From: Thuidium tamariscinum
Lineage: Eukaryota > Streptophyta > Bryopsida > Hypnales > Thuidiaceae
Direction of reading: 5' to 3'
Length of the DNA stretch: 64,000 nt
Assembly: GCA_947034885.2 (NCBI GenBank)
Contig: OX344757.2
Span: 558,001 to 622,000 of the forward strand
Part shown: positions 1 to 27,963 of the stretch, one piece after another
Position numbering within the stretch: position 1 is the first letter of the stretch
Layout: every line of letters starts with the position of its first letter
The notes under the pieces: model-generated
The model's database searches: none
Told to the model about the DNA's origin: nothing
What the model saw: only the letters and a program-made list of their open reading frames with translations
Position numbers and translations under genes: made by a program

Positions 1-3000
1 TTTGCAAAGAAGGGGACCCTTGTCACTTCTTGAGCAAGCCTGTCAAATTCATCGAATTAGATAGTCAATTTGGGAAATTCAATGCCTCATAAGTAATGTT
101 AAAAAAAATAGTTAAAATTAAAACTTACCGAATCGAGATGTCTTCACGATCTGTTGAACTGGGACGTCGTCATCTTCAAGGTCTGTTGTGGGTGCTACCC
201 ATGGTGGTTTCGGCTGACGAGATCCTCCCACACGCATTGCTGGTGCAATAAGAGCATCAAAGATGGACTTATCATCTTCGAAGGCTAGAATGTGACGGCG
301 GGTTGCGCGGCATGCCTGAATGCATGCACCTGTAGAAGCAAGAAATATGAATTAGTTTGAGGCTTAAGGGTGAAGAGATTTTTGAATGATTGGGTCATAG
401 GTCTCCAATAGAGGAAGAGTATCTTACCAGTAGACGTTGTAAAATCAACAACAACGTCCCCTGGCTGAGAGCAAGCCTCAACGAGCATCTACATGAACTG
501 ACGTGCCTTCTCACGAGGTCCACGCCACGGAGTGTCTCCATTCATGAACACATCGTCCTTGTTACAGAAATTCTGCAAGATATCATCTCGAACAACATTC
601 ACCCCTACCGCTTCATGAGAGGGAACGAACTGAAATGGGAAGTCTGTATCCTTCTTCGGTCCACTTTCACGGACCACTAATGATATCGCAAAGCGCATAG
701 TCTGCACGAGTGATTTCAAGAAGGTCAATAATTGGGAATAGAGAAAGACGATTGCCAATGACTGTAAGTTAAGAATGTTGGAATTGTTCTTACCGTCTTG
801 GAGGGATCTGTCGGTGATGTTAGATGGAGATGATTCATCCCCATCCAAGGAAGAAGAATCCGAAATTTGTATGTCTGGCAACAGCCAAGGATGTGGCTCC
901 TGTGTTGCTTAGAAGGAGCTGGATACATGACAATCATAGCTCCATTGTTGTGTAAATAATTGTCAGCAAAGTCAAAGATAGGTACCAGAAATTGCATGTT
1001 GAATTCGTTCCACGCTGGAATGGCTCCAGGTGGGGCGGATATAGTGGGAACGTGAAGTCCCTCTGGTACGTCCACAAATATCAAATCCACAGCTGGCTTG
1101 TCACTGTTGACACCCAGAAATGACCGATCCTTATCTGTAGAATGCTGCAACATAGACATCAATTGTCACGTGTAAGAAAATATAACGACACCAAGATATT
1201 GCATTGCCTTTCATACAAAAATGGGATTCCCAGAGTATGAATGAATTGTTCAAGGTAGAATTCGTACCATGCCTAAGAACGAGAAGACGTCGTTACAAGC
1301 CACTGTGTTTCCAGGCAAAATGGAGACGGACAAGTTTAAGATGCACTTGTCGATGTCAGGTACAGGATCCAGATTCTTCAATGTTGGGGTCAGTCCGTGA
1401 ACCAACCTCTCCTGTGTAAGAGAGAAGCTTGAGGAGCCATCGGGCATGTTGGCGGTGCTAGTGGCGGGCTCCTGCACTAGAGTTTCCGCCTTCCTCTTGG
1501 TCCCCTTCTTCTTGTCTTTGTCCTTGTCCTTCTCCACTTACGCCAAAAGCTTCTTCTTCTGGGTCTCATCGGCCTTCTTCTTTGCTTCCTCCAATTTCTC
1601 TATCTTCCTTTTATCGGAAGCCTCGCGCTTTCAAATAGCCCGTTCACGAGCGTCAGTGTCAAGCCCTTTGAACTCATCAAATTCGGGCTCACCAGACGAT
1701 TTCTCTTTCAAAGACTGAAAGAGGGCCTGTTCCTCAGAAGGAGTGACTCCAATGTTGCACTCTAAATACCAAGGGCACTTCAGTAGATGCGCGCTAGTCC
1801 ACGTCTTCAGTTGGTTGGGAGAGAACATGTAGTTAGCGGATGACTGGAGTTGCCAGGTCATAAGGAACGGAGGCAAATCCTCTTTTGCGATGGCCTTCTT
1901 GGGGTAGAGTTCAAACATAAAGTACCTGCAAATAGAAAGTGAGTGCTTAGTAATCCACATTTCTTTTGAGCCTCAAAGAACTAATACGTCATAGAAGGAG
2001 TTACAAGGAAAAATTCAATGAAAAACAAACCTGAATATGACCCGTCTGACGGCCAATACGGATCCACGATAATCGGGAAAGGAGTCTGACTTCTTAAAGG
2101 CATCTGAGCCCTTGAACACCCCACTATAACCAACGTCCCACAACTTCATTCTCCACCCTTTCAAGTAGTCAACCAGCTTAGCTGGTTCGCCCACCACAGT
2201 CATGTCTATGGGGATGTTATTAGTTTGCATCATCCCCTCGTACATCTCGAGGACCCCATCTTCGAGCTATTAAACATCATCACAAAGTGAGCTTAAAGAA
2301 CGTCATTACATTAATCACAGTAGAGAAGTAGTGGAAATGAATTTGAAGGAACTAAATGACAACCAAAGAGTGATCAAGTGATTTACATGCAGTACTTACC
2401 CCTGCATACCATGCTGCCTTGGCAAGAAAAATCAGTAGCTTGTCCTCATTAACAGGACGTGGAGGTACTCGCCGTGCTTCTCTAGACGAACTGGAGGAGT
2501 TGAGCCACCTCAACCACTTTAGCTTGTGCACACTAGACACATTGGTTGTTGCTATCATTTGGAGCTTCTCTAATGTAAACTCCGGGACAGAGAAGAGCGT
2601 CCAATGTCGCTCAATCTGCAGTAGGTATGGAATCAATTCATAAGAATTCCATTGCCAAAAAGAAAAGAGAAGCATTCATGAAGGGCTGAACTTATTATTA
2701 CCTCATTCAGCCATTCCGGGCCAAGGTGCGGGGAAGCAATAGCGGTAATCTTGGAGAGCTTCTTGTATAGCTTGTCCGTGGAGTCCTTAATGGATGCTCG
2801 CATCGCAAGAGCCCGTGCAGTAGCAGACTTCTTCTCGACTGGTGTGTCCTCTTCATATTTGCGCAAAGCAGCATCTGCGTTCGCTGATATCTCTTGCTGC
2901 AGGTCCATAGAGTGAGACAAGCAATGAGTTTCATCACCATGGAAAGATAGTGAGATCATAGAGATGAAAGACCATGTACTATAATCTGGAATAATGATTC

Positions 3001-4595
3001 AAGATAGGACCCTTACCTTGAAAATAAAGGAAGTAAAGACTTCCAAAGGCATCTTATACCAAGTCTTCCGTGTGCTCTGTTTGCATGTCTTGACCTCCTC
3101 TTCAGTGAGCAGCTCGTTGAATTTTTCAACCTCCATGAGACCGTACTTCTGAACCCTGTAGAGGGTGTGAACTAGGTTCGTTTTGATGTAGGAGCTCTCC
3201 GTCTGACTGTACAAGCAATGCAGTGGACCCAATATTAGAACACATGATAGAGTGGAAGTCCGATTCCATACATGAACTTGACATAAACTGAGCTAAGTAA
3301 TTTGAAGGTATGCATACCTATTTATGCCGTGCATAGCTTGCATGGCTATACCAATGCGTCCTCTTGTGTCAAGAACAATGGAGTCCACGCACACATGCCA
3401 ATCCACTTCGGATGAGTAGAGACGATTGATGTGATTCATCCAAGCAATGCGTCTGTGATTTCCATCACAGACAAAGAACTTGTAGTCAACCAATTGATAA
3501 AGGTGGGGATTGGCCTTCAACTCCTCATTGAATTTGTCATTCACTGAATTCCAAATGGGCCCCCATCCGGCTTTATCCTCATCTGTGAAGATCCCAGTGT
3601 CTCCCGCTTCGTCTGCAACAGATACATAGAAAACCCGGGCCCCCTCCTCGTAGCCTCTACTGAACTTGTTGTCCAACATCGTGAGGTCACACTCCAAAGT
3701 AGGCCTGACCATGGGCATAGGCACCATCCTGCATAATGGAATCCAAAGTCGTGAGTGATCAGATGTCGTAAGTTGCAGGCTAGAGATAATGGAGAAGGTG
3801 TCGACTTTTTGGGACCGCCGAATATCGTCCTCTAGAGCATCATCCGCAACACCGGGAATGTGGTAGTCCACCTCCACCGCCGGCACTTGCACCACCTTCT
3901 CCTTCGTCAAGTCTGTCACGGTCTCCTCAGGCGCTGCCAGCCTCGTAATGACATTCGACTTCGTCAAGGATGATGCAACGGACTTCGGTGAGGTGTCTGT
4001 ATCATCACCCTCCTCATCGTCGTCGTCGTCATCATCCTCACTGGAGGACTGAAAATAAAACACAGAAGGACTATATAAGACCATTCTTTAATAAATCAAT
4101 AAGCAACTCATGAAATCAGTAAAATATGTCCTTTCAACAGGGATCATAAAGCTCTCGTGACTATAGGCCTTAGACTAAACAGACGCAAACCAAAGGCAGA
4201 GTTCTAAACTCGCCACAACAAAATATAAGTGTGTCGTCATCTCCATCAGAGCACGTGCCACCATCTAGCATACAGCTACAAGAAATGGAGTCCACATCAA
4301 TGGCGGCCATATCCAAGGCTACATCATCAGACCCTACAGAGGTGAGGTTTGACCACATTGGAGACACAAGTCCCTCATGCTGACCACTGCCTAAATCCGA
4401 ATCCAATTCCAAAATCAAGTTGTCCAAATTTACCCTCGCCCGTGGATTTTGAACAATCGGGTTATCCTCCGGTCGAGCGTCATCAACATCCATAGCCTCT
4501 TGAGATTCCAATGAGTCGTCTTGTTGTGTCTCTTGCAAGAAATCTGCAATATTGGAAGTGCCGGCTCCATCACCCTGAGACTCTCCTTCCGCCAT
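1..4595 (-). pseudogene. ParB-like / DNA-methyltransferase-like gene, copy A (runs off left edge)
   Basis: Multi-exon gene. Exons I infer from splice signals and from alignment by eye to copy B (21058-27963): 4595-about 4213, 4048-3318, 3206-3017, 2896-2702, 2615-2400, 2266-2031, 1925-1268, 1144-794, 701-428, 329-129, 39-beyond 1. Exon 2 starts acidic (run of D/E), then carries a conserved block ending in CDGNHRR (about 3451-3471), resembling the GxxHR loop of ParB/DGQHR-type folds. The C-terminal exons read like a beta-order N6/N4 DNA methyltransferase: a DPPY-position motif DVPEG near 1065-1080, then PWRGPREK, GDVVVDFTTSTG and CRATRRHILAFEDD. The DPPY equivalent is degenerate, so activity is doubtful. 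In-frame stops occur at 1631-1633 (TGA), 1538-1540 (TAA) and 489-491 (TAG where copy B has Q). Homology to copy B is clear; the domain names are inference from motifs. Confidence 0.72.
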
Positions 4596-4747
4596 TGACC
4601 CTCCACCAGAAACCTAAATGAAAAGGGATCCACTGAATTCATGAGAAGTAAAAAGAGAATATGAAAGAGAATAATACACAGCAACCAAATCAAAACTAAA
4701 TGGAACCGAAATGGTTGGAGTCAACCAAGGCCACATTATCGCCAACC

Positions 4748-5560
4748 CAGGCCGCGGCATCGACACACACTTGTGTCGATATGAATGTGATTCAAGTTCG
4801 TACTGGCGCATGGCCGCGACCCCGAAGGGGACCCTCTCGGTGCCAAGACCCCCCGAGGAGGGGGGCAGTCTATGCATCTAAGCTCGATACAACTCGCACA
4901 TTGCGCACCCCGCATCTGCAACCCCTGAGAAAGAAAATAAAAAAAATGGGGGTGGATCGGCCAAGGCCACCACCCCAACCACCCACCACCGCGGCATCGA
5001 CACACACTTGTGTCGATATGAATGTGATTCTAGGTCGTACTGGCGCATGACCCCGACCCCGAAGGGAACCCTCTCGGTGTCGAGACCCCCCGAGAAGGGG
5101 GGCAGTCTATGCATCCAAGCTCGATACAACTTCCACATTGCGCAATTGGCACTCCCGATCCCTAAAAAAAATTTATGGAATAGGGGGTGGATCGGCCTAA
5201 GCCACCACCCCATGCACCCTGAGCTGCGGCATCGGCACCCTTGTGTCGATATGAATGTGATTCTAGTTTGTACTCGCGCTGGACTTCGAAACCCAAGGGG
5301 TCTTCGGCGATTCCTAATCCGCAGGGAGGGTGGAACCTCTGCATCCAAACCCGATACAACTCGCACATTGCGCACTCGACTTACCAGACCTACTGAAGAA
5401 AAAAGTGAGTGGCCCCTCCGCGGCCTCGACGGACACTTGAATCAATTCAATCTTGAATGCAGCCTGGGCTATGGTTGAAACTGAGTTGTGTATGCATCCT
5501 ACCTCGACGGAACCCACACGTTGCACTTCAAACATTCGTAACAAAACAAGCAAAGGAATG
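4748..5560. repeat. GC-rich tandem repeat, about 235-bp unit, hairpin-forming
   Basis: Three recognisable units begin near 4748, 4989 and 5222, with a degenerate fourth from about 5419. Each of the first two opens with a perfect 9-bp inverted repeat (ATCGACACA, 4-nt loop, TGTGTCGAT) and continues with CCCCGAAGGGG-like and CCCCCCGAG/GGGGGG hairpins, a conserved CTCGATACAACT stretch and a GGGGGTGGATCGGCC block. The array lies just upstream of the start codon of copy A on the minus strand, so it may be part of its promoter or 5' UTR. Long ORFs on both strands here follow the repeat and are not taken as genes. Confidence 0.75.
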
Positions 5561-5894
5561 AAAGAGGCGCACCTTCTTTGTTTTCTTTGACGGCTTCCGT
5601 GCTTGGGTTTCCCCACCCGCATTGTCGCTCGGAGCTCACCGCGACCTCAACTTCCGCTCCATTGTCAATCCCTTGGAGAATACCCAAACGCGACGCAAAA
5701 TCCAATTGAGGAAGAGGCAGTGCATTGACTGACTCTCTCTCGCACTGTGAGTCCACCACCCCACTGGCGAGTTCCGACTTTAGGTCGCCTTCACGATTGA
5801 CTGTGGTTTCGTGGGCTAAGTTCGGCCATGGGATCTTGAGGCCTGGTCCCCGATCGCCCGAGGTCAGGGTAGGGAATGCGGCCCCCAGGACCAC
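5499..5894 (-). other. Open stretch, possible 5' exon of copy A
   Basis: A 131-codon open frame on the minus strand in CpG-rich sequence. It has a possible donor (AAG/GTGCGC) near 5573. It could be an upstream exon of the minus-strand ParB/methyltransferase-like gene or merely a GC-rich promoter. No domain recognised and no matching exon found in copy B. Confidence 0.2.
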
Positions 5895-5916
5895 CGACTT
5901 GGGAGGAAATGATTAA

Positions 5917-6809
5917 TTTTGAAATTTTTATTTAAAATTTCTCTTTTTGAATTTTTGATTTCATATTTGATTTTTGTGACATTACATTTTAAAAGGGATT
6001 AAAAAATTAGGCGTTGATCATGGCCCAGACTGAGAGCATTTTGTATCGACTTCGTACTTAGTAGGGCCGAGCGAGTGGAGAACCTACCCAGGTCTTTTTA
6101 CATGTATTGGTTTATTAATTGTTTTAAATAGTGGAATCAGGTTTAAATTAAGTCTCGGTATTACTTCTGACTTTCTTGAATAAGTGACGAGAAACGATTA
6201 TGTTCATGTTGGCTCCTCATTTGTAAAATTATTCCCACATACTATTTCATGGTTGTGCATTATTCATTTGTTTTTTCTTTTGGATATTGGGGGACCATGC
6301 TAGGATGAAATTAGGTCTGACGTGCTTCCGGGGTTATCCAGTTTTGATTTTCTTATGTCCGCTTTCTCGGGAAGGTAATGATTAGTAATATCCTGATTTA
6401 ATTCTTTTGTCAGATCTGCACATCGAATGTTCCAGATGCTTGGATGGTACTTATTCAAAATCTCTGGCGGCTTCTTGTATCTCCATTAGTATTGATGACA
6501 GAGTCTCATAAATGGATACTATCCTTTGCCTTCTTGGTGGCGGCAGCCTATTTGATGATAACCCTCGTTTGAAGCTTGGTTGGTTGAAAACATTCAAATT
6601 GTTCGAATTGTCTGTTCCTAGCAGGCTAGTCGTTGTATGGATTCTTTTCGTTTGTGAAAGTTCTTTCTCTTTGTTTTTCTTGACGTGTTATAGTCATCAG
6701 TTCACGCACTTTGCTTTAGAGGTTTTAGATTGAATTTTGACTTGTGTGAGTATCGATTGGATTAGATTGGACGGTCATTTGCTTGGAGTCGGCTACCATA
6801 GATTATGTC
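5917..6809. other. Spacer between the divergent genes A and C
   Basis: AT-rich sequence between the minus-strand methyltransferase-like gene and the plus-strand transposase gene. Short open frames (for example 6512-6733) have no recognisable content. It probably holds the 5' UTR and promoter of the transposase. Confidence 0.4.
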
Positions 6810-7169
6810 ATGGACAACCTCTCAAATATGGTGGTCGTGAGGCCAGCAGATGATGGCGTACCGGTGGATTTCCCTGTCGGGGAAGATGGTTTAGCTTCTG
6901 TGTCCGCAACTAGACTAGGTCTGAGGTTTAAATTTAGACCGGACTCAATTCATGTGGATGAGGAGTTTGTGGCTGAAGACTCTGGTGTTCTTACTCATAG
7001 CGTGGGGCACCTTCCATCGTCCTCAGGGGAGAATATTTGTTGGCACTTGAAACCGGGAAGCTATAGAACTTATGGCGTAATAGATTCTGTGGAGTGCGGG
7101 TCCAAAAATGCTTCTTCTTTGAATAGGTCTTCCTCTTCCTCCTTCCAAACACCTCCCTTGCTGCGCCCG

Positions 7170-8849
7170 TGTCATAGCACAGGAAAGTCAAGTTGCTTCT
7201 CTAAGACCGGAAATGGCCCTAAAGTGACTCGTTTATCATTCCTACAGAGATTTGGTTGCCAGATGACTAATATCCGGAAATCAGAATAAGGATTACCATA
7301 AAACCCCAAGCACACTTATCTACTTTTACCTTATCATACTCTAAAACTCTACAGACTCCCCTATTTACAAACTTACAGAATCCAAACCGGAACAGAGAGT
7401 GGGTAGCAAATCCAGCTCTCCTACATCCTAAGATACTTTCCGGTTTTTCCCAATAACCAGTGTCCGGAATCGAGTTTAACCTCTGAACAAAGAGGGATCT
7501 GCGTATTGTGATTAAGGAAGGAAGCTTACAACTTACCCTCTGCGTTTTAGAGTGTCAAGAGTGCCACTTAAATAAAGAAAACAACAAAACAACATCAATC
7601 CTATTCAACCTAATTTCCCTCACAACTAAACCGGATAGCTATCTGGCCTAGCAGGTCACGCAAGAAAACTTCAGTTAAAACTAACTTACACTACAACGAC
7701 GGCCTACTGGGTTAGTCTAAACTCTGGGCAGAATCCGGGACGGGCGGATTGAGAAGTCGTCACCTTCCCTACACATTTCCGGTTACCAAAGAACCTGTCT
7801 ACCGCTTGAACTGGAGTTGTCCGAAATCATCAACGGCTATGGCTCCAAGTGACTGGGACTATCTTCAGATAACGGGAAAACCGGAACCGATCGCACTGAG
7901 GGATCAGGAATCCACCATCACACACAGATTGCACTTACACTCCCAAGAATCCGGATAAACCCAATATCCGGGCACACTCTCTCCCTACCTATTCCTGCAA
8001 CTCTACAGAACATACACCAACAGGGTCACCCACTGGAATACACGCCGTCACCTCAATGTGAGCCAGAAACGCTGACTTGAATTGCACAATGCTAGGAAAA
8101 CAAGGTATGAAAATGCACACTAACAAACTGAAAACTAACACCTAAATACTTTACAACCCAAGGGAAACCACAGCCCAAGGGAAATCAGAGCCAACCACAA
8201 GGGAATGACACGTGCCATTCGCCTTATCCGACTCTCAGTTGACTTCCACTGAACGCCAGCACTATTCGTAAAAAGTGGATCTCAGATCCGAAAAATCCGG
8301 ATCCAGTGGAGTCAACCTTACCTACTCACCTAAAAGCAACTCGAAAAGTGCTTTCTACCAAAAACTTAGGTTTTCAACCGCCAACCTACTACTGTACCTA
8401 ACCCTAAACCTATTTCCTTGGCCGCTTCCCTGGAATCTCTTCCTTCTTGGCGGCGCCCTTCCTTGGTGGTTGTTTCCGGGCAGAACCGGAAGTGTTCTTG
8501 CGCTTCCTCGCCTGTGTAGCTTTGGCCTTCAATTGGGCCTTGACCTTCCTTGTCATGGCCAACTTAACATCTGGATCAGAATCAGGTTTTGACTCCTCAC
8601 TTCCAGATCCAGAGGTGGACTCTTCATCCTCCTCCTCTTCCAAAGAGGTATTCCGGTTCCGGTTCCGGTAAAAAGATAATCCCTCTGTTAACACTATTAT
8701 CTCCTTATTGTTTTCCGACATTCCGGTTTTCATTACTATACTATAAATCTGCATTTAGACTAATAAATCACAAATTCATATGAAAAATCGAAAGAATTAA
8801 AACCTAATTTATGCTTTCTAGACTAAAGATGACTTTTCAGGTTGCGACA
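7170..8849 (-). mobile_element. LTR-like element, 1,680-bp short form, copy 1
   Basis: Begins TGTCATAGCACAGG and ends GGTTGCGACA, so TG...CA termini. Flanks are gcccg (7165-7169) and gtccg (8850-8854), a 5-bp target duplication with one mismatch. It is the same length as, and nearly identical to, the element at 25127-26806, with roughly a dozen differences by eye, all transitions among those I checked. It keeps the C-terminal end of the acidic ORF2 of the 4-kb relative at 42833-46826 (minus strand), so it looks like an internally deleted derivative or an LTR-type fragment. No pol genes. Confidence 0.8.
8410..8754 (-). pseudogene. Truncated acidic/basic ORF2 of the short LTR-like element
   Basis: A 114-codon frame with an acidic serine run (EEEEDEESTSGSGSE) followed by a lysine-rich tail (RKQPPRKGAAKK). 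The tail matches the C terminus of the 422-aa ORF at 44219-45487 (RKQPARKGAAKH), so this is its remaining 3' end. Function unknown; the tail looks nucleic-acid binding or nuclear. Confidence 0.6.
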
Positions 8850-11800
8850 GTCCGAAGCAAAAACCGGGGTCTATTGAACTCAATCTCTTGAGCTCTGATT
8901 CGGAAGGCCACTCACCTATCCTTCCATCTACGGTACCATTCCCTGCTTCCATGTCTACCCTTCCAACTGAGAAAGGTGCGCCAGCATTGGTGTTGGGAGA
9001 TACCCTCCAAAGGATTGGATACGCTACGTCTGTGATCGATAACTTGAGAGGATTGAGTCTCTTGAAAGGCTGTAGGAACATACTATCTAGAATTGATTAT
9101 AATGTAATCGTCATTCGTAGGCTCTCGGTTTTGCCGTCCAATTTCAATGGTGATGTTATTTTTGAGTTGCCTTCTGTGGAGAGCTTGGAGGGTTCATCCC
9201 AATCGAAGCAAATGTATGGAATGGATAGGCGGCATGACGGACATGTGAGGACCAAAGCTGCTACAACGAATATTGTGAACCGCACGGGCCTGCTGTTTCG
9301 AACTTCAGTCTGCGTTGGTCATCTTCGTTGCACAAACAGTAGCTGCGAATTCCTTGGCCGTGTTCACCGACTGCAAAGCGTGAATGAGATGGAATGGGAA
9401 GGCGTGTCACCTTCTCCTCTTGCAGTTGGGGAAAAACATCCAGCAAGGTCGACACTTCTCTGCATAGTCTGCAAGGAGCCTCCCAGTTGTATTGCGCGCT
9501 GCAATGTTCGAGTGTATTACGTCTTTGGTGGAGATAATATGTCCCGAGCGTTTGTTCATCTTGGAAAGCACGAACACCCAATGAAGGATGGTGAACTGCG
9601 CGACATGCAAGAGAAATCTTGATCGCTAATTTCAGAGCAACTGGAGTGAACCCCCTCCGCCACGAATTCGTCTATTGTTTTGGAGGCTACAAAGAATCTA
9701 CTCGGCGGCCTGATCCTGCAGGCGGAAGGCGAACAGGCAAAGACGCTCGAGTTCGATGAACTTGTTCCCGTACTAGATAAGTGCAAGTATTTGAGCTCTC
9801 CAAGTATCCGAAATGAGGTAGCATCATTCAAGTATCTTAGGAGATTTGGAGTCATTGATAGCATAACAAAGTTAAGAGGCGCCAGTACTTGGGCATTCGT
9901 TCAGGAGAGCAAGTTCCCTGCCATCCCTGGTCAAGGAACTGATGTGGACAAGGTTTTTGTGTTCAAGATGTCTGAGTTAGGTCCGGGTAGTGAGGTGGAC
10001 TTGGTGAAGCGTATGCAACTAGGAAATGACCTTGAAGACGCGTGGATCATGTTCGACCATGTGAAACGTGTTGTAGGCTGGACCACCATGGCTTGCCATG
10101 TCTATGACTCCGCCTATTGCCGTGCAATGACCGTTGCGTGCTGTGATATGCAATCAGAAGACTGTGCGGCTCAAGTCTTATTTTGGAGGAATTTAAATTC
10201 TGTTCTTCACAGGAACGGTGTTCATGATCCGCAGTTCAAGGGCTTCATGGCAGACAGTGCTCAAGCGAATTGGAATGCAGTTAGAATTGTCTACGGATCA
10301 GGAGAGAGCTCGGAACCAATGAAAGATAGGGAGCGGACTTGTCTCTTCCACTGGACTCAATCCATGGAGAAGCATACGAAAGCCGACATTCGTGGCGACC
10401 TACAAGATCAACACCAAATATTATGCAAACAATATAAGAGTGCCACTTCTCCTGAGGAGTCTGAAACTCGATATCTTGCCATCAAGGCATGGTGGCTGTC
10501 ATCAGGAGCCACTTCAGAACCTCGACTACAGCGTCTAGAGTTGTGGCTGGCCTTCTAGCATTTCCACTACAAACAATGGGGTGGATATCAACAATTGGTA
10601 TGTTATCAACCCTAAACCCTAAAACCGTAATTTGCCATTTGAGACATTTTTGTAATCTTCTACTTCACTTACCAGGCAATGAATTTTTAGTTCCTTGGAT
10701 TTGCGAAAAGTTTTACATACCTTCTACCCTGATTGCACTCTCTCGGGACCGAGAGACCCCTACTGGGGGAGAGGGCTTGCAAACAATCGCGCTTTGTGCT
10801 ACCGGTTGACGCATTCAAATTTGCTTTTGAAATGCAATTCCATGTAGTCCACTAGCGAGCCCTTCTCGCGTTTGCGCCTACCTAGGATGGGTTCTACTTA
10901 GAAGTCAAATGACCCTATGCTTTGGAGGGCTACTGCCAAAAATCATTGACATGCTTCTGAACTGCTTTGACAGATTCTTTATTCGGGGTCTCAGTGTGTT
11001 CTTGGACATTGGAGGATCTATCTTTGAACGAGCGGGCAGAAATGCCTTCTTGCAACTTAGCCGAGACTGTACACAATAAATGGCTGCAACAATCTGGAAA
11101 TAGAGGTAGGGATTTGTACGTTGCTACGGTGGACGACTTTGTTAGAGCTTTTGTTCAAATGGTAAGATATTACCAATACCTCAAGGGGAACCAAGGCGGA
11201 ACGGGACCGGGCAAGGAAGAGTTGTTACTTAGAGCTGCACAGCGATCGACGGAGCGAACTAGGAATCCAAAACCGCTAACTGAAGCCATTGCCAACATTT
11301 TAAATGTAGAAGAATTCATCAATCGAGAGCCCCATCTTGAAGGTGAAGAGGTCTTTGGATTGCAAAAAAGAAAAGATGACATGGCTCTAGGCTGCAAACA
11401 CGATTCACATAGACTTGACAAGGTGAACTTCTTACATCCGCGTATTCAAACTAGATCTAGGAGAGCCAATTCATCTGCGCACTCTCTGAATCCAATTTTA
11501 GAGGATGTGCCCCTCACGGTACAGAACGAAGATGAAGACTGTACGGAAACCGAAGACGATTTGGGAGCAAGGACTACCGCTGGACCGAGTCATGTGTCCG
11601 GAATTCAGGAGACTGCTTGTGATGAGTCAAAATGGCACATAGCTCGTTTACCAAAAACATCAGCAAAAGTATGCTTTGCCCTCCAGGCTATTACGAAGAA
11701 GAAATGTATTGCTCAGATAATTCAAAATAATGTCGCCACTGCAGCTCCAACATACACAGGTATGATGGTGAATTACAGGAAGAATACTAGTGATAAAATG

Positions 11801-12475
11801 CAGTTATTTTTCTACAATGACGACATTGAGCGATGTGTGAAGGGGACGCGAAGGAAATGGGTTTCGATCCCACCAGCAATTCCTGATGTTTGGCCCATCA
11901 AACTCGGAACGAAGCTTTCGCTGTCTGAGATTTTAGCCCTCGAGAACGCAGGTTTTCAACTTCCACAGCGTCAACTTATTTCACCACGGCGATTGTTCGG
12001 GGGTACAACGAGTGCAGAATTGTTGGAGGCGTACCCTATTCCTTCTTCAGCGGATGAACATCCAAATGCTCGTGCTGGGAAGGTAGTCCGTTGAAACCCG
12101 AAATCTCCTATAGTTAAGCACCAAAACAATTGTGCTTCTGCTTTGACATTGGTTGTACGAATTGACAAAGTGACAATGGTTCCTCATCCAGGATTTGGGT
12201 GTATAGTTTCATTGGCATCTGGTACGGAGCCGAAGGCAGAAAAATACTTGATGACAATTTCGTCATTTCCGGACTGCACTTGTCCAAATTTCAAGGAAAT
12301 GAAACTTAGGTGCTTGGGTAAACGTGGAACATGGGCAAATTGTAAGCACTTGTATTTCATTTTCATTGTTATTTGCAAACTACAGCCTACAATAGATCTG
12401 TTTATGCATTGTGCCACTCTTAGCTTCAACGAAGTGAAGCAAATACTCTTGAGTGGCATACTGAATTACTTGTGA

Positions 12476-13210
12476 GGAAAGTAGGATTCTGAAATTGAAG
12501 TAAAATTAGGATGTTGTTCAGTTTTGACTTCAATAAAGATTTTTTGACCCTACACTTGGAGAACCTTTTTGGATAAATGTGAAACACATGTTTACATTGT
12601 GCTCAGCAAAAACATTTCAGTTTGGTAATATAAAAAGTATGACATTGACCCTAAACCTCACCTTTTTGTCTTCTCTTGAACTAAACCCTAATCCACTTGA
12701 AATAATTAAATTGTAGTGCTTAGCTTTGCTACTTCAAATTATAAAGAAAGAATAAATATGAACAAGGTTTCGTGTACCTAGTGTTGACAATGAATTCAAT
12801 TTAGGAGTTCTTTGCTTATGAACCCAATTGTTCATTTCACCTTGCTCTTCAACCTCTCTTCTTCAACTTTCACCCAAGTTTCTCATGTCTTCAGCAATGC
12901 ATTCAACCAAACTATTCACTGAATTGTGCTTCCATGAACCATCCACCTTTTTCATCCACTTTTTTCATCCACTTTTGTCCTCTGCGTTTTTCATCCACTT
13001 TTTTCATCCACTTTTGTGTCGTTTCATCTAACTTCTTCCAAAAATTCATCCATTTTTTTTCTTCTTCTTTGCAATTTTCTTAAGAATTCTAACTATTTTT
13101 TCAATTTTTCTTTCATTATTCTTCGTCCCCACTCACTAATCCCTGCTCACCGCTCCCTGCTCCCTTTGTAGCATTCTCCCAAATGTAAAGGATAGGAACA
13201 TGAAGGCTTT
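12476..13210. other. AT-rich spacer with TTTTTCATCCAC repeats
   Basis: No gene seen. Between about 12947 and 13060 the motif TTTTTCATCCAC recurs at least five times in short tandem. Scattered CCCTAA words occur. Confidence 0.4.
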
Positions 13211-15296: not shown

Positions 15297-16476
15297 GCTC
15301 ATATTCTAGTAGTGCAACAGGGTGCTTGTGCTCTCCAAAGTGAATTGTTGCTCTACTCACTTGTACTTTATCACTGCATACGTAGTATATTCTAGCCGAA
15401 CATGCGCTAAGACACGTAGGGGAAGTTTTACAAACCTTTCATACTAGAGTTGAATCTACTGGTGGACACTCTCCCGGAGTGAAAGGGAACATAGTATATC
15501 CAGTCCACTCTGTTTCGTTTTTCTTAGAAGTTCTCTTCAAGTAATCACAATTTGCATTCTCACAAGAAAGATGTCCAGCACAAAACGACTTACGGAATTT
15601 CAGGTTGTCGGAATTGTGAATGTTTGTAGTCGTCAACTTGCACCACGGATGTCCGTCGTATCGCTTATCCATCCCCTCCAAGTTCCGAGCCCCTGATGAA
15701 GAAGAAGATGAGCGACATGGTGGCAATTCGAAGATGACATCTCCATCAAAGATGGCTGGAAGAAATGGAACTTGAATGCACTTCATAGTGTCCAGATCCA
15801 TTGCTGACAACTCATTTCGAGAGCGGTGCATTGTACCAAGTCTCTTCAAGCAATCCATTATACTCTCTGCGCTTGCTACATACGGAATTAAATGGGGGAG
15901 TGTCAATGTCAAATTTGAAGGACTACTTGAAGGGATTCCAGATATAGATTGAACTCCTTGTATCTTGGATGTTGCAAGCGGAACAGAATGAGCAGGACTC
16001 TCAAAACTGAACTCGTGAGTCTCTCCTTCAGAATCTGAAGACAACTCTATGATTGGATCTAATTTCTCCACTTTCACTGGACGAAGTGCTCTACGCTTCT
16101 CAATGACTGGTAAAGCTTGCGGAGGTGGACTAAGTGCAATGGCCTGTTCAATACATGGCATATTCATTGTAGAATTGTCTGACTGGTGACTGGGGATTTC
16201 CATGGACACACTCAACATAGACAGAGGAAGCCCATATGCTCTGTAGTTTCCTGGAGATAGGTACCAACAACGCATACCATCCTCTAGGGACACAACAACA
16301 GGGATGGACTACTGCACTTCACCAGAATCTAACAATTTCTCCTCTTCAACATATATGGAGCTTTCTATAAACTTGAATCGAACATGGAGAAGGTGGGAGG
16401 CAACTCTAGCGCATTCACCATCTACTACAAGAAAAACCAATGGAACTTCACGGCCATCTACTCTAATGTAAGCCAT
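15297..16476 (-). pseudogene. MULE transposase N-terminal remnant, copy D
   Basis: Paralogue of the N-terminal part of the transposase at 6810-12475. Reading from ATG at 16476: RFKFIESSIYVEEE, then CWYLSPGNYRAYG, an acidic ELSSDSEGE, GDVIFELPPC, GMDKRYDGH, the zinc-finger half CAGHLSCENANCDYL, and after a stop the second half CKTSPTCLSAC ending HFGEHKHP (about 15320). In-frame stops at 16308-16310 (TAG) and 15439-15441 (TGA). The DDE core and SWIM finger are absent; the coding match ends at an AATATGACT repeat array. It faces away from the plus-strand paralogue of gene A, mirroring the A-C arrangement. Confidence 0.8.
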
Positions 16477-17256
16477 CTTCAAATCCTAAAGAGGTGTGTC
16501 AAGAAGAGAAGACTATGAATCCTTTGTACAACATGAGGTCCATATGAACAGAACTATGAACACATTTTCACTTTGCCATCTTCAAAGGTTTAGGGTCTTA
16601 TGTATAATGAAATCACGGAAACTAGCCGCCATTGTGCTTTACATTATTCACTTCTAACCAACCTCTTTAAAGACCCTATGACATTAAAACAATTACTATT
16701 GCAATATTATTCTCTTAGAGTTCCTTCTGACATATAGATTTATAAAATAGAACATCTCCATTCAAAAAAGAGAATTTATGTTCTATAAGATGCCAAAAAA
16801 TAAATGGCGCCACCAATTGAAGGCCTACAACTTGCTTTGTCCTTTAATATAATTTCATGTATATAGGTAGCCTTGTCATAGACCATAATTACATAAGAAA
16901 CTGACATGTTAGTGGTCATCTGAATTGACGGCGAGCTCATTTACTGGAACTGCAAAAATGAAGACTTCGAGGTGAAACTAACAGCCAAAATGCTGCCATC
17001 CCTACGTCCTTTAATACAATTTTTCCGGCGCCGCTTACAATACATCATTCATGACATGTCATATTGTACTCCCACGCATGTCATTATAGCGGTTTACGAG
17101 AAAGCGGCTTAGCCTAAACTTCCACTTATGGCATAAGGAGGAAACTTGGCTTTGAGAACTCATTCCAATCTGTTTCTTGTGATTGAAGAGTGGAGTGCGA
17201 GAGTTGTGATGTTCTCCCTTTTCACTTCATGCTTGTAGAGAATAGTAGCTATTTCT
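16477..17256. other. Spacer upstream of remnant D
   Basis: AT-rich sequence without recognisable genes; probably the old upstream region of the transposase remnant. Confidence 0.35.
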
Positions 17257-18770: not shown

Positions 18771-18774
18771 AGAA

Positions 18775-18960: not shown

Positions 18961-19278
18961 AGAGTCCTCGGGCTGTTGGAAACGGCAATCACGCAATAAG
19001 TCCGCCCGAAGGATTCACGAGCCTTCTCAGATTCTCCCTCCTCTTCCACGGCGCGCACAGAACGTAAGGGGGGGAGATTAAATTTAGATCCTTATCTGCA
19101 ACAAGGAATGGTTCGACTGAATTGTCGCAGGGAAGCTTTTCCAGCCTGTACAGCCCTTCCTTCGGACGGCGCAACCCAGACTTCTAACGTTGGCCTCTCC
19201 GAGGTACCGAAGTAGTCTTGCGCTCTCTACCTCGTGTGTCTTAGATCTTCACGTGATTTTGTGCAGTAGGACGCCAGG

Positions 19279-19362
19279 ATGACTCGTGCAACACGGAGCC
19301 GTGCGCGGGAGGGTGCAGCGACTCCACCAGCTCGTGGAGGCAAACTTCAGAAGAAGACGTAG
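19279..19362 (+). other. Candidate first exon of copy B
   Basis: A short frame from ATG 19279 (MTRATRSRAREG, basic) ends at a TAG overlapping a possible GT donor (GAC/GTAGAT) at about 19358. The next supported exon begins at 21058. Speculative. Confidence 0.25.
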
Positions 19363-19579
19363 ATGATTCTTTTATCCTTTTTCTGTACTCAGGGTCGATT
19401 CGAGAGTTTGGAATCCAGCGTGAAGTTTAGGTTTTTGGGCATTTTCTTGCGTTCTTCGAGATGGTCTAGAGGGGAGATGGACTTCCTGACTTGCCCATTG
19501 CTTCAGCTTGGAGCTGCTCTCACGCATGAGGGCGATTCAAATTCTGGATATTTTGAACGTTAGTTTTTTTTTTAAAATT

Positions 19580-19685
19580 GCCTGGTTGAGTTTCTTGGGG
19601 GTCCAACCTGACCTCGTCAGAGGTGGCTCGGATCCGAGCTACCTCCGACCATGTCCGACTGGACCCCCAAGAAACCCAACCAGGC
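19580..19685. repeat. Foldback element FB1, CGGATCCG centre
   Basis: A 106-nt imperfect palindrome. The outer arms (from 19581, CCTGGTTGAGTTTCTTGG...) match with one mismatch over 24 nt; the inner part pairs with about seven mismatches. The centre is CTCGGATCCGAG. Two similar foldbacks lie at 20180-20286 and 23812-23914. Confidence 0.75.
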
Positions 19686-20179
19686 TGACATTTTCGACTT
19701 CAATGCGGCAGAAAGATTTGATTTTTCTTGAATTTGTTCGATTTCCCAGTCTCGCGGCAGCGCAGGCCAGAACTTCTCCTTCCGAGAGCCTCATGCAGTC
19801 ACTGAATTCAAAATGTTAGTTATTGTGACCTCCGTCCTTGCAGTATGTCTGTTCCAAACAGAGAGTTTTGAACTTTGTGAGATCAGAAATTTTAAAAATC
19901 CTCGCCCCGAATACGGGGGTTCGGAGCTCCGTGGTTCTGATCAAAGCCAGTCTCGACGTCGAGACTCACTCCGGACTCAGACTCACTCACGTCGAGAGTC
20001 ACTCCTCTGCCTCCGAATGCAGGCAGATTTTTTGATCCGAGTGATCGATCCTGTTGAAACCATCTCCCACTCAGTCTGGACTCCTGTTTTGTCCCCGCTG
20101 ATCTCATGTTGAAATCATGCAGTACTTGCAGCGTCAGGATATCGATTCTAATTGCATGCGGGAATTTTTAATTTCAGTT

Positions 20180-20286
20180 GTTGGATCTCGAGGATCAGGG
20201 GGTCGCAGAGATAGGGGCCTGGTGACCGTCGGATCCGACGGTTACTGGGCCTAAATCTCTGGTACCCCAAGATCTTCAGATCCAAC
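20180..20286. repeat. Foldback element FB2, CGGATCCG centre
   Basis: A 107-nt imperfect palindrome whose arms start GTTGGATCT and end AGATCCAAC, with centre CCGTCGGATCCGACGG. Length and centre match FB1. Confidence 0.75.
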
Positions 20287-21057
20287 GGCTCAAATTTAAA
20301 AAAAATTTTAAAAACCTTTTCCTGATAGGTTCTGGAAACCTCGTATTTAAATTTATTGATATATTTAAAAGATTGCAATTAGAGTGATGAAAACGATTTT
20401 TAGATTTCTTTTTAAAAAATATCAGATCCACTCTTCAATTAAATGTAATATTATGCTTTAATATTTTTTTATATTTAATTGCGTGGGATTATGTACAGAA
20501 TTCTCTGGCTTAAGAGATGTAAATGTCTTTAATTCTTAATTTCCAGATAAAATTAATTTCATTAATATCTTTAGTCTAAAAGGATTATAAGTTCAAAAAT
20601 ATTTAGTTATATATAAATATTTTTCTTTTCATGACAAATTATTATTACTTTTTTTTTAATTTCATAATTATGTTTACTACACTCTTTTTTGAATGTAAGG
20701 GCTTTTAAGCTTGTTTGATAGAATTCTTGATTTTATTTCTTGATTTTATGATTTCTCTCTTCATATTTGAGTTGAATTTATAAATGATAAATATGATTTT
20801 TAGTATATTGAAATCAAATGCCACCTCTAATTCAAATAGGAAATAGTATATCCTAGCCTAAAGAGTTTTTATTTTGGAGTTCATGTCAAGCTAAGGTTAG
20901 TGACAAAGGTTTTTATGGAGTATGTGTACTTCGTTGAAGTTGGACTGTTTTCACTTTAAAATATATCTAAGAATTACATTCAATTCCCAACATCTTCATC
21001 TTTCAATAATGACCTACTAATTCTATTACTTGTTTACTTAAATGTGGTCTATTTTTC
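20287..21057. other. AT-rich stretch before the first firm exon of copy B
   Basis: Very AT-rich, no coding frame; a likely long first intron or upstream region ending in the acceptor TTTTTCAG at 21057. Confidence 0.4.
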
Positions 21058-23811
21058 AGCAAAGCCGCGAAGGAGGGGCATCTTCACCTACATCATCTCT
21101 TCCAAGTGTTTTGAAGACTCATGAAGCGGGTCCTTCCCAGGAACCTACTTCTGGGATTCCAGATGTCCATGTTCCAAGTGATTCTCAAGAGGAAGACAAA
21201 GCTCCAGAGCAAGACTTGGTAAGTTTTGATGATGTTATGGAGGCAGCGGAGAGAGCGGTAGACGCATTTGAGAGTTCAGTCATGAGTCGGGTGAGTGACA
21301 TCAGGTCTCATCGTCATAGACACTTTGCGAGGCTTGTAGAGATTTAGTTTGAAAAAGGAAGGTTCATGTCTCCGGAGAGCTCTGAGACAGAGTATAGCTC
21401 AGAGGCTGAAACCTCCATCACAGTGGACGGTCCATCACTACAAGAGTTTTGTACATGTACTTGTAGCGGTCCTACAGGTCCACAAGAGCCAGTATTCATT
21501 CACTTAAGCTCAGACTCAGAGGAGGATATAGAGATAGACTAAGTGCACTTGGATTTCTTATATGTGTATGCATATATTGTATTTAAACTTTTCGAAATAT
21601 TATTTATTACTATATCTCATTGAACTTATGGATTTAGTGAATAGAGGTATGTGTTTTGTCTTGAATTGATTTAGATTTTTACTCCATATATTTCTGTTTC
21701 TAGACCTTGATTTCATTTTTTATTTTGCAGATGGATGTGTCTCCAGTTAACCTTTCTCTTGAAGACATCATTCTTCAAACTCCAAACACTGAAGAGACAA
21801 TTCAACAAGAGATTTCAACAGTAACTGGAGGGGGACAAATGGACCAAGATGTGCTGTATGACTTCATAGAAGAAGGCAAGGACTTATTGGAGGACGATTT
21901 GCGGCAGTTTCAGAAGGGGGATTCAGTGAACACTATATCAAGCCTTAGGATGAAGCCGGATCACTTATTTCGGCTTTCTATACCGCTATGCCGAATGGTG
22001 TCTATGCCAATGGTGAGACCTACCCTTCAATGTGATCTGGATATGCTTGAGCACGAGTTTGCAGTGGGTTATCGTGACGGTGCAGCAGTTTTCTATGTGA
22101 CCACCACAAATGAAGCTGGGGAGAGCTCGGAGTTTATGGAAGAAGAGATGAACAAGTGGGATCCTCTTTGGAAGGAGAAGAACAACACATTTATTGCCCA
22201 TTTGGAGTCCCATCTTGAGTTGAGGTTCTTGAAGAACCTCAAGTTTTATATCTGTGATGGAAACCACCGCCTCATCTCATGGATGAATTATATCACCAGG
22301 AGGCACTCCAAAGATCCAAAATGGCACTGGTGTGTGGATTCCATTGTTTTGGAGACGAAGGGCAGAATTGAGCTTGTCATGCATGTCATGCATGACATTA
22401 ACAAGTATGCAATTTTTTTACCTCTTATTTCTATGTTTTGAATTCATAATTTCTTAGAAATGTCAAAATTTGGATTCTTTGTGTACCCAATTTTGAAAGA
22501 TGTGTTTTGTATAACAGATCCACAGAAGATTCACATGTGAAGACCAATCTGGTACACCAGATATATCAAGTTCAGAAGTATGGTTTGTTACCTATTGAGC
22601 GGTTCAATGAGATGTTGAGGCCATCCGAGTAAAAGCGGTGTGGGTTACCGAAAACAAAGAAGACGTGGTATTCTATGCCACAAGAAGTATTCACATCCTT
22701 TGTTTTCCGGGTAAGAAAATTTCTGTACTATTTCTTTGTTTTTATTATTGCCTTATGTTTTCAGATGGGTTTTTTTCTATACTGATTTCAAGTCATTTGT
22801 GAACCTCAATTTTCCAGCAAGACATTTCTCAAGCCGCTGACGCAGCTGCTCGCAAGTACACTGAGGTCACACTCGAAAATAAGAAGACTGCACTAGGTCT
22901 TGCAGAGGCAATGAGAGCAGGGGCAAAAGAAAGGACTGGGAAGTTGAATGTGAAGATGTCCAAATTGTTAGCGGTGGCAAATCCAGCTAATACGCTTGGA
23001 TTCATGGAAGAAGTAAGTGATTTATGTATTTCAAAGTATATTGAACAACCTCACTTGAAAATTCATTACATATCTAATTTTCTATTTCTTTTGGTGTAGG
23101 TGGAGAAGCATTGGACTTCAAATGAGATTCCAGAGATGACCTTAGAAAAGTTGCAGATGATTGCAACTTGCAATACTACTCCAGCTCACAAAATCAAGAT
23201 TTTGAAGTGGTGGAATTCTTCCATCCCTTCACGTGAAACAAGGCGTTTTCCACCGAAACCACTATCTGAATTATTGCTTGGTCCATTTCTGAATCGCTGT
23301 GTTTGGTATGCTGGGGTAAGCACTCCTTATCATCACATTGTGAGTTCTATAATTTTCTATTTAAACATTACATTTATAAAAATGATTCTATTTTGAAATT
23401 GAGACTCGATTGTCACCTTGAAATGGATTTCTATTTGTTCAATGGTTCTTTCAGATTGAGGATGCAGTACTGGAATACTTTGAGGCGGTTGTAAGACAGG
23501 ACAACATTTCTATCAACATGAACCTTCCCTCAAAGCCACAGACGTTATTGGATTATCTGGAAGGATGGAGAACGAAGATTTGGGATCAAGGTTTCTTGGC
23601 GCAGTTGAGAGGAGTGAACTACTTCAAGAAAAGCGACAATTTTCATACTTTCGAGGAGGCCAATCATGCTGTGCGAAGGGTTCTTTTTTGGTGAGTTTTG
23701 CAGTATAATTTCTTGTCTTTATGAATTCATATTGCAAAACTTACTTATGTTACTAGTTTTTGGATGACTTGAATAAATTTCAAGATGACTTGGAAATTTT
23801 TTTTTATGAAA

Positions 23812-23914
23812 GTTCAAAATGTTGGGGGTCCCCGGAATACCTCTTAGACATATGTCGGATCCGACGGATGTCCAAGAGGTACCTTCGGGACCCCCTACTT
23901 TTCTTCACTTGAAC
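23812..23914. repeat. Foldback element FB3, CGGATCCG centre
   Basis: A 103-nt imperfect palindrome inside an intron of copy B (23691-24058). Arms include GGGGGTCCC, ACCTCTTAGACAT and GTCGGATCCGAC at the centre. It shares the TTGGGGGTCC start and the centre with FB1. Confidence 0.72.
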
Positions 23915-25126
23915 TGTGTTGATTACTTTTTCAATGAAATATTAAAATTTTGGGGGGGTTTCGTGGACATTGACAACTCCCTTTGTCCATGTATATTATA
24001 GATTTAAAATTTTTTGTCCTCTAAATTCTCTTCCAAACCTTGTGTTTGCTCATGGCAGATACTTCAAGTATGAGCTAGAAGCAAAAGGCGCAATTCAAAA
24101 AGCAGACCTTCCTCCATTTCTGTCTGGATTTCTTGACCGCAATTCGGTGGATTGCATGTTTATAGCGAATCAAATTCGCACATTTACCACAGCTCATCTA
24201 AGTGGTGGAGGATGGTACCTTGACTACCCTATTGCGTATACACATCCGTCTGAGGTGGAGCTGTGGAACTCATTGGAGGGAATTGGTGCTGTCACTATGG
24301 AGGTTGATGAATTTGTTGGCCTCACTGCAAAGCAGAAGCAAAAGGCGATTGCAAAAAGGGACACAAATGACAGAAGGAAAGCTGCTCGCATTCAGCTGGC
24401 GTTGGAGAACAAAGAAAAGAAAGAAGCTAAGCGTCTTGCTAAGTTAGAAGAAAAGGAGAAGGAGAAGGAGAAAGAGAAGGACTATAAGGACAAGGCAAAA
24501 GGGAAGAAAATTATAGATGGCAGTGGCGCTCCAGCCTCATCAACATTGGATGAAGGCTCTCAAATGCAAGGTGCTTCTCAGGGCGGGATGAAGAGGAAGG
24601 CTGTACTTCCAGACTTCACGGAAGAGGTAATCACTCAAGGGACACAAGTGATCGCCCTTGGAGATGATGACGATGTCAACTCTGAGGAATTACTGTTGCA
24701 TGTCTCGATTGGTGAAGTAGTAGACAACGAAGAGGTTCGGGGACCGAATTGTTATAATGAAGTCTTGGACTTCTTGCGGAAGGTAAATTCTTACAATCAT
24801 TTTATTGTGCATTTCAATTGGAGAAATGAATGAGTATTTGTTTGTACTTGTATTCATAAAGTCCTCACATATTGAAGAAATGCACTTGCAGATGGTGGTA
24901 GGAAAAGCAAGGGTTTATGATGGAGTGGTCAATCGGCATCCGGGATTTGATCTCATGATATCTGACTGCTAGGAGAACTTGCCGGTGCCAGACATAGGGG
25001 GCTCCAAGCACATTCCTTATTGGAACGCATATAAGGAATACTTTACCATCTACCAAGCTCTTGCGTTTGCACAGAAACATTTGCAGGACAACGGCTGCAT
25101 TGTTGTGTTCCATTCTTGGGGCCAAG

Positions 25127-26806
25127 TGTCGTAGCACAGGAAAGTCAAGTTGCTTCTCTAAGACCGGAAATGGCCCTAAAGTGACTCGTTTATCGTTCCC
25201 ACAGAGATTTGGTTGCCAGATGACTAATATCCGGAAATCAGAATAAGGATTACCACAAAACCCCAAGCACACTTATCTACTTTTACCTTATCATACTCTA
25301 AAACTCTACAGACTCCCCTATTTACAAACTTACAGTATCCAAACCGGAACAGAGAGTGGGTAGCAAATCCAGCTCTCCTACATCCTAAGATACTTTCCGG
25401 TTTTTCCCAATAACCAGTGTCCGGAATCGAGTTTAACCTCTGAACAAAGAGGGATCTGCGTATTGTGATTAAGGAAGGAAGCTTACAACTTACCCTCTGC
25501 GTTTTAGAGTGTCAAGAGTGCCACTTAAATAAAGAAAACAACAAAACAACATCAATCCTATTCAACCTAATTTCCCTCACAACTAAACCGGATAGCTATC
25601 TGGCCTAGCAGGTCACGCAAGAAAACTTCAGTTAAAACTAACTTACACTACAACGACGGCCTACTGGGTTAGTCTAAACTCTGGGCAGAATCCGGGACGG
25701 GCGGATTGAGAAGTCGTCACCTTCCCTACACATTTCCGGTTACCAAAGAACCTGTCTACCGCTTGAACTGGAGTTGTCCGAAATCATCAACGGCTATGGC
25801 TCCAAGTGACTGGGACTATCTTCAGATAACGGGAAAACCGGAACCGATCGCACTGAGGGATCAGGAATCCACCATCACACACAGATTGCACTTACACTCC
25901 CAAGAATCCGGATAAACCCAATATCCGGGCACACTCTCTCCCTACCTATTCCTGCAACTCTACAGAACATACACCAACAGGGTCACCCACTGGAATACAC
26001 GCCGTCACCTCAATGTGAGCCAGAAACGCTGACTTGAATTGCACAATGCTAGGAAAACAAGGTATGAAAATGCACACTAACAAACTGAAAACTAACACCT
26101 AAATACTTTACAACCCAAGGGAAACCACAGCCCAAGGGAAATCAGAGCCAACCACAAGGGAATGACACGTGCCATTCGCCTTATCCGACTCTCAGTTGAC
26201 TTCCACTGAATGCCAGCACTGTCCGTAAAAAGTGGATCTCAGATCCGAAAAATCCGGATCCAGTGGAGTCAACCTTACCTACTCACCTAAAAGCAACTCG
26301 AAAAGTGCTTTCTACCAAAAACTTAGGTTTTCAGCCGCCAACCTACTACTGTACCTAACCCTAAACCTATTTCCTTGGCCGCTTCCTTGGAGTCTCTTCC
26401 TTCTTGGCGGCACCCTTCCTTGGTGGTTGTTTCCGGGCAGAACCGGAAGTGTTCTTGCGCTTCCTCGCCTGTGTAGCTTTGGCCTTCAATTGGGCCTTGA
26501 CCTTCCTTGTCATGGCCAACTTAACATCTGGATCAGAATCAGGTTTTGACTCCTCACTTCCAGATCCAGAGGTGGACTCTTCATCCTCCTCCTCCTCCAA
26601 AGAGGTATTCCGGTTCCGGTTCCGGTAAAAAGATAATCCCTCTGTTAACACTATTATCTCCTTATTGTTTCCCGACATTCCGGTTTTCATTACTATACTA
26701 TAAATCTGCATTTAGACTAATAAATCACAAATTCATATGAAAAATCGAAAGAATTAAAACCTAATTTATGCTTTCTAGACTAAAGATGACTTTTCAGGTT
26801 GCGACA
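25127..26806 (-). mobile_element. LTR-like element, 1,680-bp short form, copy 2
   Basis: Begins TGTCGTAGCACAGG, ends GGTTGCGACA, and is flanked by a perfect 5-bp target duplication, ccaag (25122-25126 and 26807-26811). Exactly the same length as copy 1 at 7170-8849 and almost identical to it. It splits the methyltransferase-like exon of copy B. TG...CA ends plus 5-bp duplication are the signature of retroviral-type integration, so I class it with LTR retrotransposon derivatives. Confidence 0.87.
26367..26711 (-). pseudogene. Truncated ORF2 remnant in the second short element
   Basis: Same 114-codon frame as at 8410-8754 with a few substitutions; acidic serine run then a RKQPPRKGAAKK tail, matching the C terminus of the 422-aa ORF in the 4-kb element. 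Confidence 0.6.
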
Positions 26807-27963
26807 CCAAGACTCCTTGGAAACCATTGCAGGACTTCTTTAGGAGTACCTAAACATCAAGAAGAAGAAGGACTATATGGGCATGAATCGGATGCATCTT
26901 ACATCGGCAATTCACCTAGAGCAAACGATAATACTTCATCATTTGTTTCAAATGGTTTTTTGAATTGAATTTGTTATATTGATTGTTACTTGTTCTCATG
27001 TGGGCTTTGTTTGTGTTTGTAGACATTGAAATTTGGCATCACTCTCTTAGTGAAACATCTAGGAGAGAAAGGAAAATCAAATTTTGAATTCAGGCGCACT
27101 CAGACCATGCTGAAGGCGAAGGTTGACCTTCGCCGCGTTGACCTGCTCATGAATTACACTACGGAGGACACCATGTTGATGAATGACATGGATCGAATGC
27201 CATGGCGTGGAGCTCGAGAGAAGGACGTCCGATTCATGCAGTTCATCATCGAAGGAACCATTGATGAAGGAGATATAGTACTTGATTGCACTGCATCTAC
27301 AGGTGAGTTTTGATTTCTTGAATGTCTTTAAACCTTCTCCATTTGATGTAGTCAACAATTATACAAATCATTCACTTTTTGCCGTTTTTGGTTTGTGACA
27401 GGTGCATCTATTACTGCGTGTCGAGCAACAGGGCGGCATATTGTTGCGTTGGAAGAAGATAAGAGGATTTTCCAACACATTCTTTTGCCAATGAAGAAGG
27501 TTGATGCACCAGTAACCGCGGCTCCAAGTTCGGATGCGACAACTGTGGTTTTATCGCAAGACCAAGATGCTGTTGTAATTGTGCCTCGCAAATTCATTTG
27601 GCGCCCTAAAACTTATGTAAGTTTTTCGATTTAAGGCTTTTTAGTTTTCATTGTACTTGGAATGTTTCTTGGATTTAACAATGCATTTGGTGCATGTGTA
27701 GCAATGATGGAGTGATCGTGGAGGACGAAGTGAAGAAGAGACGAAGACTCATCTTGAGCCCTGAGAAGCCATTCGACCTTCCAATCTATGCAGAGCAACT
27801 AGCATCAGCGTTTGCAGAGTTTGGTACTTCTAAGCCCAAACAACGCAAACCTTCTTACGCTCTAAATGTCTTACAATTCATAGATGGATCGGCATCTGAG
27901 GGTAGAGAGACTTCAGAGTCTTCTAGTGATAGAGATTCTGCGACAGAGTCTACTGCAAATTAG

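Follow-up and report, generated by a model that had tools for sequence, protein, structure and literature searches.

How do two transposase genes and two copies of a second gene come to lie in mirrored order in plant DNA, and what does the second gene contribute? The question is raised by a 64,000-nucleotide stretch of Thuidium tamariscinum, here called the window, which corresponds to C9:558001-622000 of a 363 Mb genome in 19 contigs that was searched whole (contigs carry numbers, while C alone is a gene). From left to right it contains gene A (minus strand), gene C (plus), gene D (minus) and gene B (plus). C and D are genes for transposases of the Mutator-like element (MULE) type, and A and B are accessory genes for a probably ParB-like and methyltransferase-like protein. 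We hold with high confidence that these genes belong to two MULEs, termed A-C and D-B, each of which pairs a transposase with such an accessory gene, and that the A-C element is nested inside the D-B element. This confidence applies to the pairing and the nest, and the role of the accessory protein is graded separately below.

Layout of the locus

The main features of the locus are as follows.

1..13179, no strand: part of the A-C element within the window; the right edge is the end of homology to the copy at C11:8.64 Mb, and the left edge lies outside the window
23..4595, minus strand: gene A, ParB-like and N4/N6-methyltransferase-like accessory gene of the A-C element, with 11 GT-AG exons and 3 in-frame stops
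6807..12475 (start approximate), plus strand: gene C, MULE transposase of the A-C element, in two exons, broken by a 1,680-bp insert, stops and a frameshift
15314..16485, minus strand: gene D, N-terminal (5′) remnant of the D-B element's D-type MULE transposase
21731..27963, plus strand: gene B, ParB-like and methyltransferase-like accessory gene of the D-B element, with six exons at 21731-24782 followed by methyltransferase exons to 27963
29463..29482, minus strand: right terminus of the D-B element, outermost bases ...GCTAGCAACCCTG
29483..29492, no strand: right copy of the 10-bp target site duplication, CATATTAGTA

An additional upstream exon of gene B, from about 21042, is possible. The earlier note on this DNA had read the same gene order and had taken A and B, and likewise C and D, for paralogues, and both points are borne out. 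Alignment of A with B covers 669 codons at 46% identity, and the two share three internal exons of equal length (195, 216 and 236 nt). The alignment of C with D covers 229 codons at 42% identity, and tblastx between the A-C and D-B halves finds similarity far above chance. The D-B element extends past the limit of 27963 given there to 29482, and has its left end 24 kb to the left of the window.

A nested insertion

The right end of the window's D-B copy, at 29482, has its counterpart at C9:534350-536246, where a left end in the same orientation is found that is 98% identical in comparison with the copy on C4. This segment includes part of the missing 3′ half of the D transposase. The 10-mer CATATTAGTA stands both to the left of the first left-end base (C9:534341) and to the right of 29482, forming a target duplication whose copies are 53 kb apart. 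Because the ends match and CATATTAGTA flanks both of them, a single D-B insertion spans C9:534,341-587,482. The A-C element, at about C9:556.5-571.2 kb, lies inside this span, and its nesting within the D-B element therefore accounts for the mirrored layout. The transposase stretch between the two D-B transposase fragments was not located and may have been deleted.

As position and target duplication show, the D-B element inserted first and created the 10-bp duplication, and the A-C element and other repeats landed later in its transposase part, with A-C in opposite orientation; the exact point of the A-C insertion is inferred.

The alternative named in the earlier note is that a two-gene locus was long ago duplicated locally in inverted orientation, which would explain both the mirrored order and the exon structure that A and B have in common. 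Three observations exclude it to the point that we give it practically no weight. In protein trees, C and D fall into separate, well supported deep clades together with proteins of other contigs (the placement of C within its clade is weak, 82/27), and A and B are divided in the same way, each in a deep clade shared with proteins of other contigs. Copies of each unit, 94–97% identical, occur on other contigs. Finally, the D-B element has its own 10-bp duplication, which frames the whole nest across 53 kb.

Pairing of the two gene families in the genome

Both gene families are present in high copy number, with 330–641 first-look candidates per probe, and only part of these were scored: 40 of 330 for the D probe, 150 of 639 for the B-type exon, 145 of 617 for the A probe (giving 15 close places) and 40 of 375 for the C probe (giving 16 close places). 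The counts of D places and A places include the window's own pair.

Judged by coordinates, a B-type exon lies no more than 15 kb away, in the divergent layout seen in the window, at 38 of the 40 scored D places, while random placement of 639 exons gives a mean of 0.506 pairings and a maximum of 4 in 1000 runs. All ten loci that were fetched, from 7 contigs, carry the D-type transposase on one strand and a divergent B-type ParB-methyltransferase gene on the other. The accessory gene lies opposite the transposase and inside the element ends. For the A-C unit, C lies within 5 kb at 11 of the 15 close A places; three more have it in the expected order at distances of 39, 77 and 87 kb, and one has none. 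The locus at C11:8.64 Mb retains the A-C pair, and this copy also abuts a D-type transposase. At the A locus at C10:16.2 Mb, no C partner was found within the 20 kb read.

Such pairing also bears on the possibility that the two families are independent repeats brought together by chance, which their high copy number and the character of the region as a repeat nest might suggest. An observed 38 of 40 against about 0.5 expected, the similar spacing, the single orientation and the lack of any control exon at 61 left ends (see below) leave this with a negligible probability. The proposal of the earlier note that transposase and partner are cargo of one Mutator-like transposon family thus survives as to the kind of element, and is amended in that two related families are involved, one nested in the other.

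Contig C11, which at 17.5 Mb makes up 5% of the genome, holds 51 of the 150 scored B-type exons and 15 of the 61 exact left ends. At a guess, it is possibly a sex chromosome or a repeat-rich one.

Element ends and target duplications

The left end of the D-B element reads CAACGACGCTAGCG... and its right end ...CTAGCAACCCTG. Copies begin CAACGACGCTAGCGTGCGAG and end, as reverse complement, CAGGGTTGCTAGCGTGTGAG. These termini form imperfect inverted repeats of about 20 bp, with 14–15 of 20 positions matching. The left 21-mer occurs 177 times in the genome with at most one mismatch, and a control occurs 0 times. Among 61 exact left ends, 45 have a B-type exon 8.9–14.7 kb inward, and within 20 kb none of the 61 has such an exon inward in opposite orientation or on its outer side. 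Exact 10-bp target duplications flank five of nine D-B copies tested as well as the window copy; a tenth copy, on C3, was not measurable.

The D-B element accordingly has a duplication within the 8–11 bp range of MULEs, and it does not have the long terminal inverted repeats that were also expected. MULEs with short or no terminal inverted repeats are known, so the short repeats are compatible with membership. From its family, the transposase would be expected to cut and paste the element through these ~20-bp repeats.

Several results weigh against our reading of the locus. No exact target duplication is present at four of the nine D-B loci, 16 of the 61 exact left ends lack a scored B-type exon over the 20 kb inward of them (150 of 639 candidates having been scored), and two of the 16 close C places are without a close A. 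For the A-C element, neither a terminal inverted repeat nor a target duplication was found, and duplications of the length foreseen in the earlier note (8–10 bp) were found at D-B only. Two of the four D-B loci lacking an exact duplication, at C11:0.42 Mb and C11:1.22 Mb, carry each other's flanking 10-mers when compared by eye, and their copies are oppositely oriented. The swapped flanks are as expected from an ectopic exchange with an inversion of about 0.8 Mb.

The transposases

C and D are paralogous MULE-type transposases with an RNase H core. The best fold match of the catalytic part is the transposase of ISCth4, which we take to belong to the IS256 family. The proteins count among the DD(E) RNase H transposases related to the IS256/MULE group. 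The structure model further shows a ubiquitin-like fold at the N-terminus and a zinc region that is GCM-like. Unlike the ISCth4 transposase, the protein is larger, has these two additional regions, is encoded in two exons and belongs to a two-gene element.

The assignment has points against it. Whole-model TM-scores to ISCth4 are low (0.19/0.34), and no Pfam transposase model reaches its cut-off, the match to Transposase_mut having E=0.034 in one of 32 members. A match to the SWIM finger (E=0.084) is likewise below cut-off.

A scan of a set of genome contigs matched one contaminant contig, with a transposase and no accessory gene. This contig, CADCWO010000080.1, is filed as a cyanobacterial metagenome-assembled genome and encodes a two-exon relative of the MULE transposase, which is probably eukaryotic contamination. 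Three scans of viral contigs found no relative.

The accessory protein

The accessory protein has about 1,100 residues, in which a ParB-like domain is joined to an N4/N6-methyltransferase-like domain. The latter matches PF01555 with E=1.6e-5 (25.4 bits) in B and E=3.5e-4 (21.0 bits) in A, both under the curated threshold of 26.7 bits, and PHROG methyltransferase families with E=3.1e-7 in B and E=3.5e-6 in A (DNA methyltransferase). A PF01555-type domain is accepted on these sub-cut-off Pfam matches together with the PHROG matches. A protein search with the whole of A gave no match, and one with an exon of A aligned to that of B gave 487 matches.

The ParB-like domain is no more than probable, the assignment being weak. 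A GNHR motif was seen by eye. DUF1015 reaches at best E=6.4e-4, below cut-off, in five of 40 members, and the unrelated family KMP11 scores as well in six of 40. A ParB PHROG is matched in 13 of 40 members with a best E=0.039, the structure model of this part is poor, and a fold search with it had no match.

Selection was estimated between two D-B subfamilies from 16–20 non-independent pairs. The ratio of nonsynonymous to synonymous divergence (dN/dS) is 0.22 in both transposase exons. In the accessory gene it is 0.12 for the ParB exon, 0.10 for a middle exon, 0.13 for the methyltransferase exon with motif IV and 0.05 for the first 85 codons of the exon with motif I. In view of these low values, the accessory gene is under strong purifying selection, tighter than that on the transposase. 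The synonymous divergence itself (dS) between the two subfamilies is 0.41–0.75 in the accessory gene versus 0.24–0.30 in the transposase. The two genes therefore do not have one simple shared history, a point against our reading that also hints at mosaic elements.

N4/N6 methyltransferases usually carry a motif I of the form F-x-G-x-G and a motif IV of the form (D/N/S)PP(Y/F/W). In alignment with DpnA, whose motif IV is DPPY, the accessory protein shows DVPE in A and, among the ten D-B loci read, DCQE in eight, ECQE in one and DYQE in one. Neither DPPY nor the general form was seen in A or in these ten loci at the place given by the alignment, a stretch that scores only 2.7 bits. Motif I is without the usual F-x-G-x-G.

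Since motif IV looks non-canonical in every copy read, binding is favoured over methylation. Tentatively, and with somewhat less than even probability, the protein would act by binding DNA rather than by methylating it. Most likely it would bind the DNA of its own element, either in the terminal region or at tandem arrays near the A side or between the genes, and would thereby help the element to escape silencing or to complete transposition. A fuller version of this proposal appears possible, if on the unlikely side: a plant MULE lineage would depend on a ParB-like protein with a "pseudo-methyltransferase" domain that lacks the catalytic motif, is constrained more than the transposase and serves as a DNA-bound clamp, or as an anti-silencing or partition factor on its own element, with no methyl transfer.

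Catalysis by the protein is doubtful on the motifs, and it is rather unlikely that the protein labels the transposon it belongs to as an active N4C/N6A DNA methyltransferase, a role that PMC12477816 proposes for the protein of Ectocarpus Sola1-1. In favour of this role are that published hypothesis, the PF01555 and PHROG methyltransferase matches and the strong purifying selection found in each of the two methyltransferase exons tested; moreover, with a motif-IV alignment of so few bits, the true motif might sit elsewhere. Against it stand the divergent motif IV in A and at all ten D-B loci and the missing glycine-rich form of motif I. With an accessory gene that is more constrained than the transposase and seemingly without the canonical catalytic motif, these elements allow a test of whether such proteins write a methyl mark or only bind and shield the transposon's DNA.

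Tandem arrays with units of about 240–300 bp lie at C9 ~556.5-557.6 kb, on the A side, and at 4751-5375 in the window, between A and C. The number of units varies among A-C copies. They are candidate binding arrays for the accessory protein.

Comparison with known systems

MuDR/Mutator consists of a MULE transposase gene (mudrA) and a second gene, mudrB, in convergent orientation. The elements described here resemble MuDR in joining a MULE transposase to a second gene. They are unlike it in having divergent genes and a ParB-methyltransferase-like partner, which is a different protein from mudrB.

The earlier note knew of no partner of the ParB/methyltransferase type. As such, one exists: according to PMC12477816, the Ectocarpus element Sola1-1_Ec32 carries a 1,104-residue protein with a ParB-like and an N4/N6-methyltransferase domain on the strand opposite its transposase, and further algal elements are cited there (Iyer 2011, Petroll 2025). 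Coupling of such a partner to a MULE was not found in the literature searched. The present elements are like Sola1-1 in being DNA transposons with a ParB-methyltransferase protein opposite the transposase. They are unlike it in that the transposase there is of the Sola type and here a MULE with 10-bp duplications, and in that the plant-type genome studied here has two or more families of them, with scored copies numbering in the dozens and DPPY not seen. By analogy, the element would work like the algal ParB-methyltransferase class, but with a MULE transposase. Fusions of ParB and N6_N4 methyltransferase domains are also described in phages and bacteria (PMC12704722). These join the same two domain types, but are prokaryotic or phage-borne, whereas the present genes are multi-exonic, eukaryotic and carried by a transposon. 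ParB-methyltransferase accessory genes thus reach beyond the known algal transposons, since dozens of the copies scored here, from at least two families, couple them to MULEs in a plant-type genome.

Decay and later insertions

In-frame stops break A, B and C, C is additionally frameshifted, and a 1,680-bp sequence has twice inserted into coding exons. For these reasons the window copies of both elements look dead. The two insertions, which the earlier note had left unremarked, are 99.2% identical.

7170..8849, no strand: 1,680-bp insertion within a coding exon of C; ends TGTC(A/G)TAGCAC.../...GTTGCGACA; flanks GCCCG/GTCCG
25127..26806, no strand: 1,680-bp insertion within a coding exon of B; flanks CCAAG/CCAAG, exact over 5 bp

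The inserted element has imperfect inverted ends of about 20 bp (TGTCG...) and a 5-bp target duplication. The C site is empty in the C11:8.64 Mb copy, and the B site is empty in those D-B loci for which sequence on either side of it was read. The two copies were also considered as a pair of long terminal repeats (LTRs) framing 7170-26806. This was rejected, as a separate 5-bp duplication flanks each copy (exact in B, 4/5 in C), the flanks mismatch across the pair and both sites are empty in other copies. A solo LTR is less likely, given the imperfect inverted ends and the end of a minus-strand open reading frame (ORF) that, by eye, is common with 44219-45499. A larger relative of the 1,680-bp element, about 71% identical and with identical terminal bases, begins at 42833. 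After this start lie two divergent ORFs, 46144..44219 on the minus strand and 46818-49690 on the plus strand, the latter with a RING finger.

A third ParB-methyltransferase gene was suspected by eye at 56881-59939, and searches gave no support for it. Long unmatched ORFs at 55776-59939 adjoin a minus-strand ORF at 54071-55024 that encodes an NLI-interacting phosphatase domain (PF03031, E=3.2e-9). Foldback palindromes are found at 13654-13970, 19580-19685, 20165-20301, 23817-23902 and 52488-52886, the first of which is 317 bp long and 94% self-complementary.

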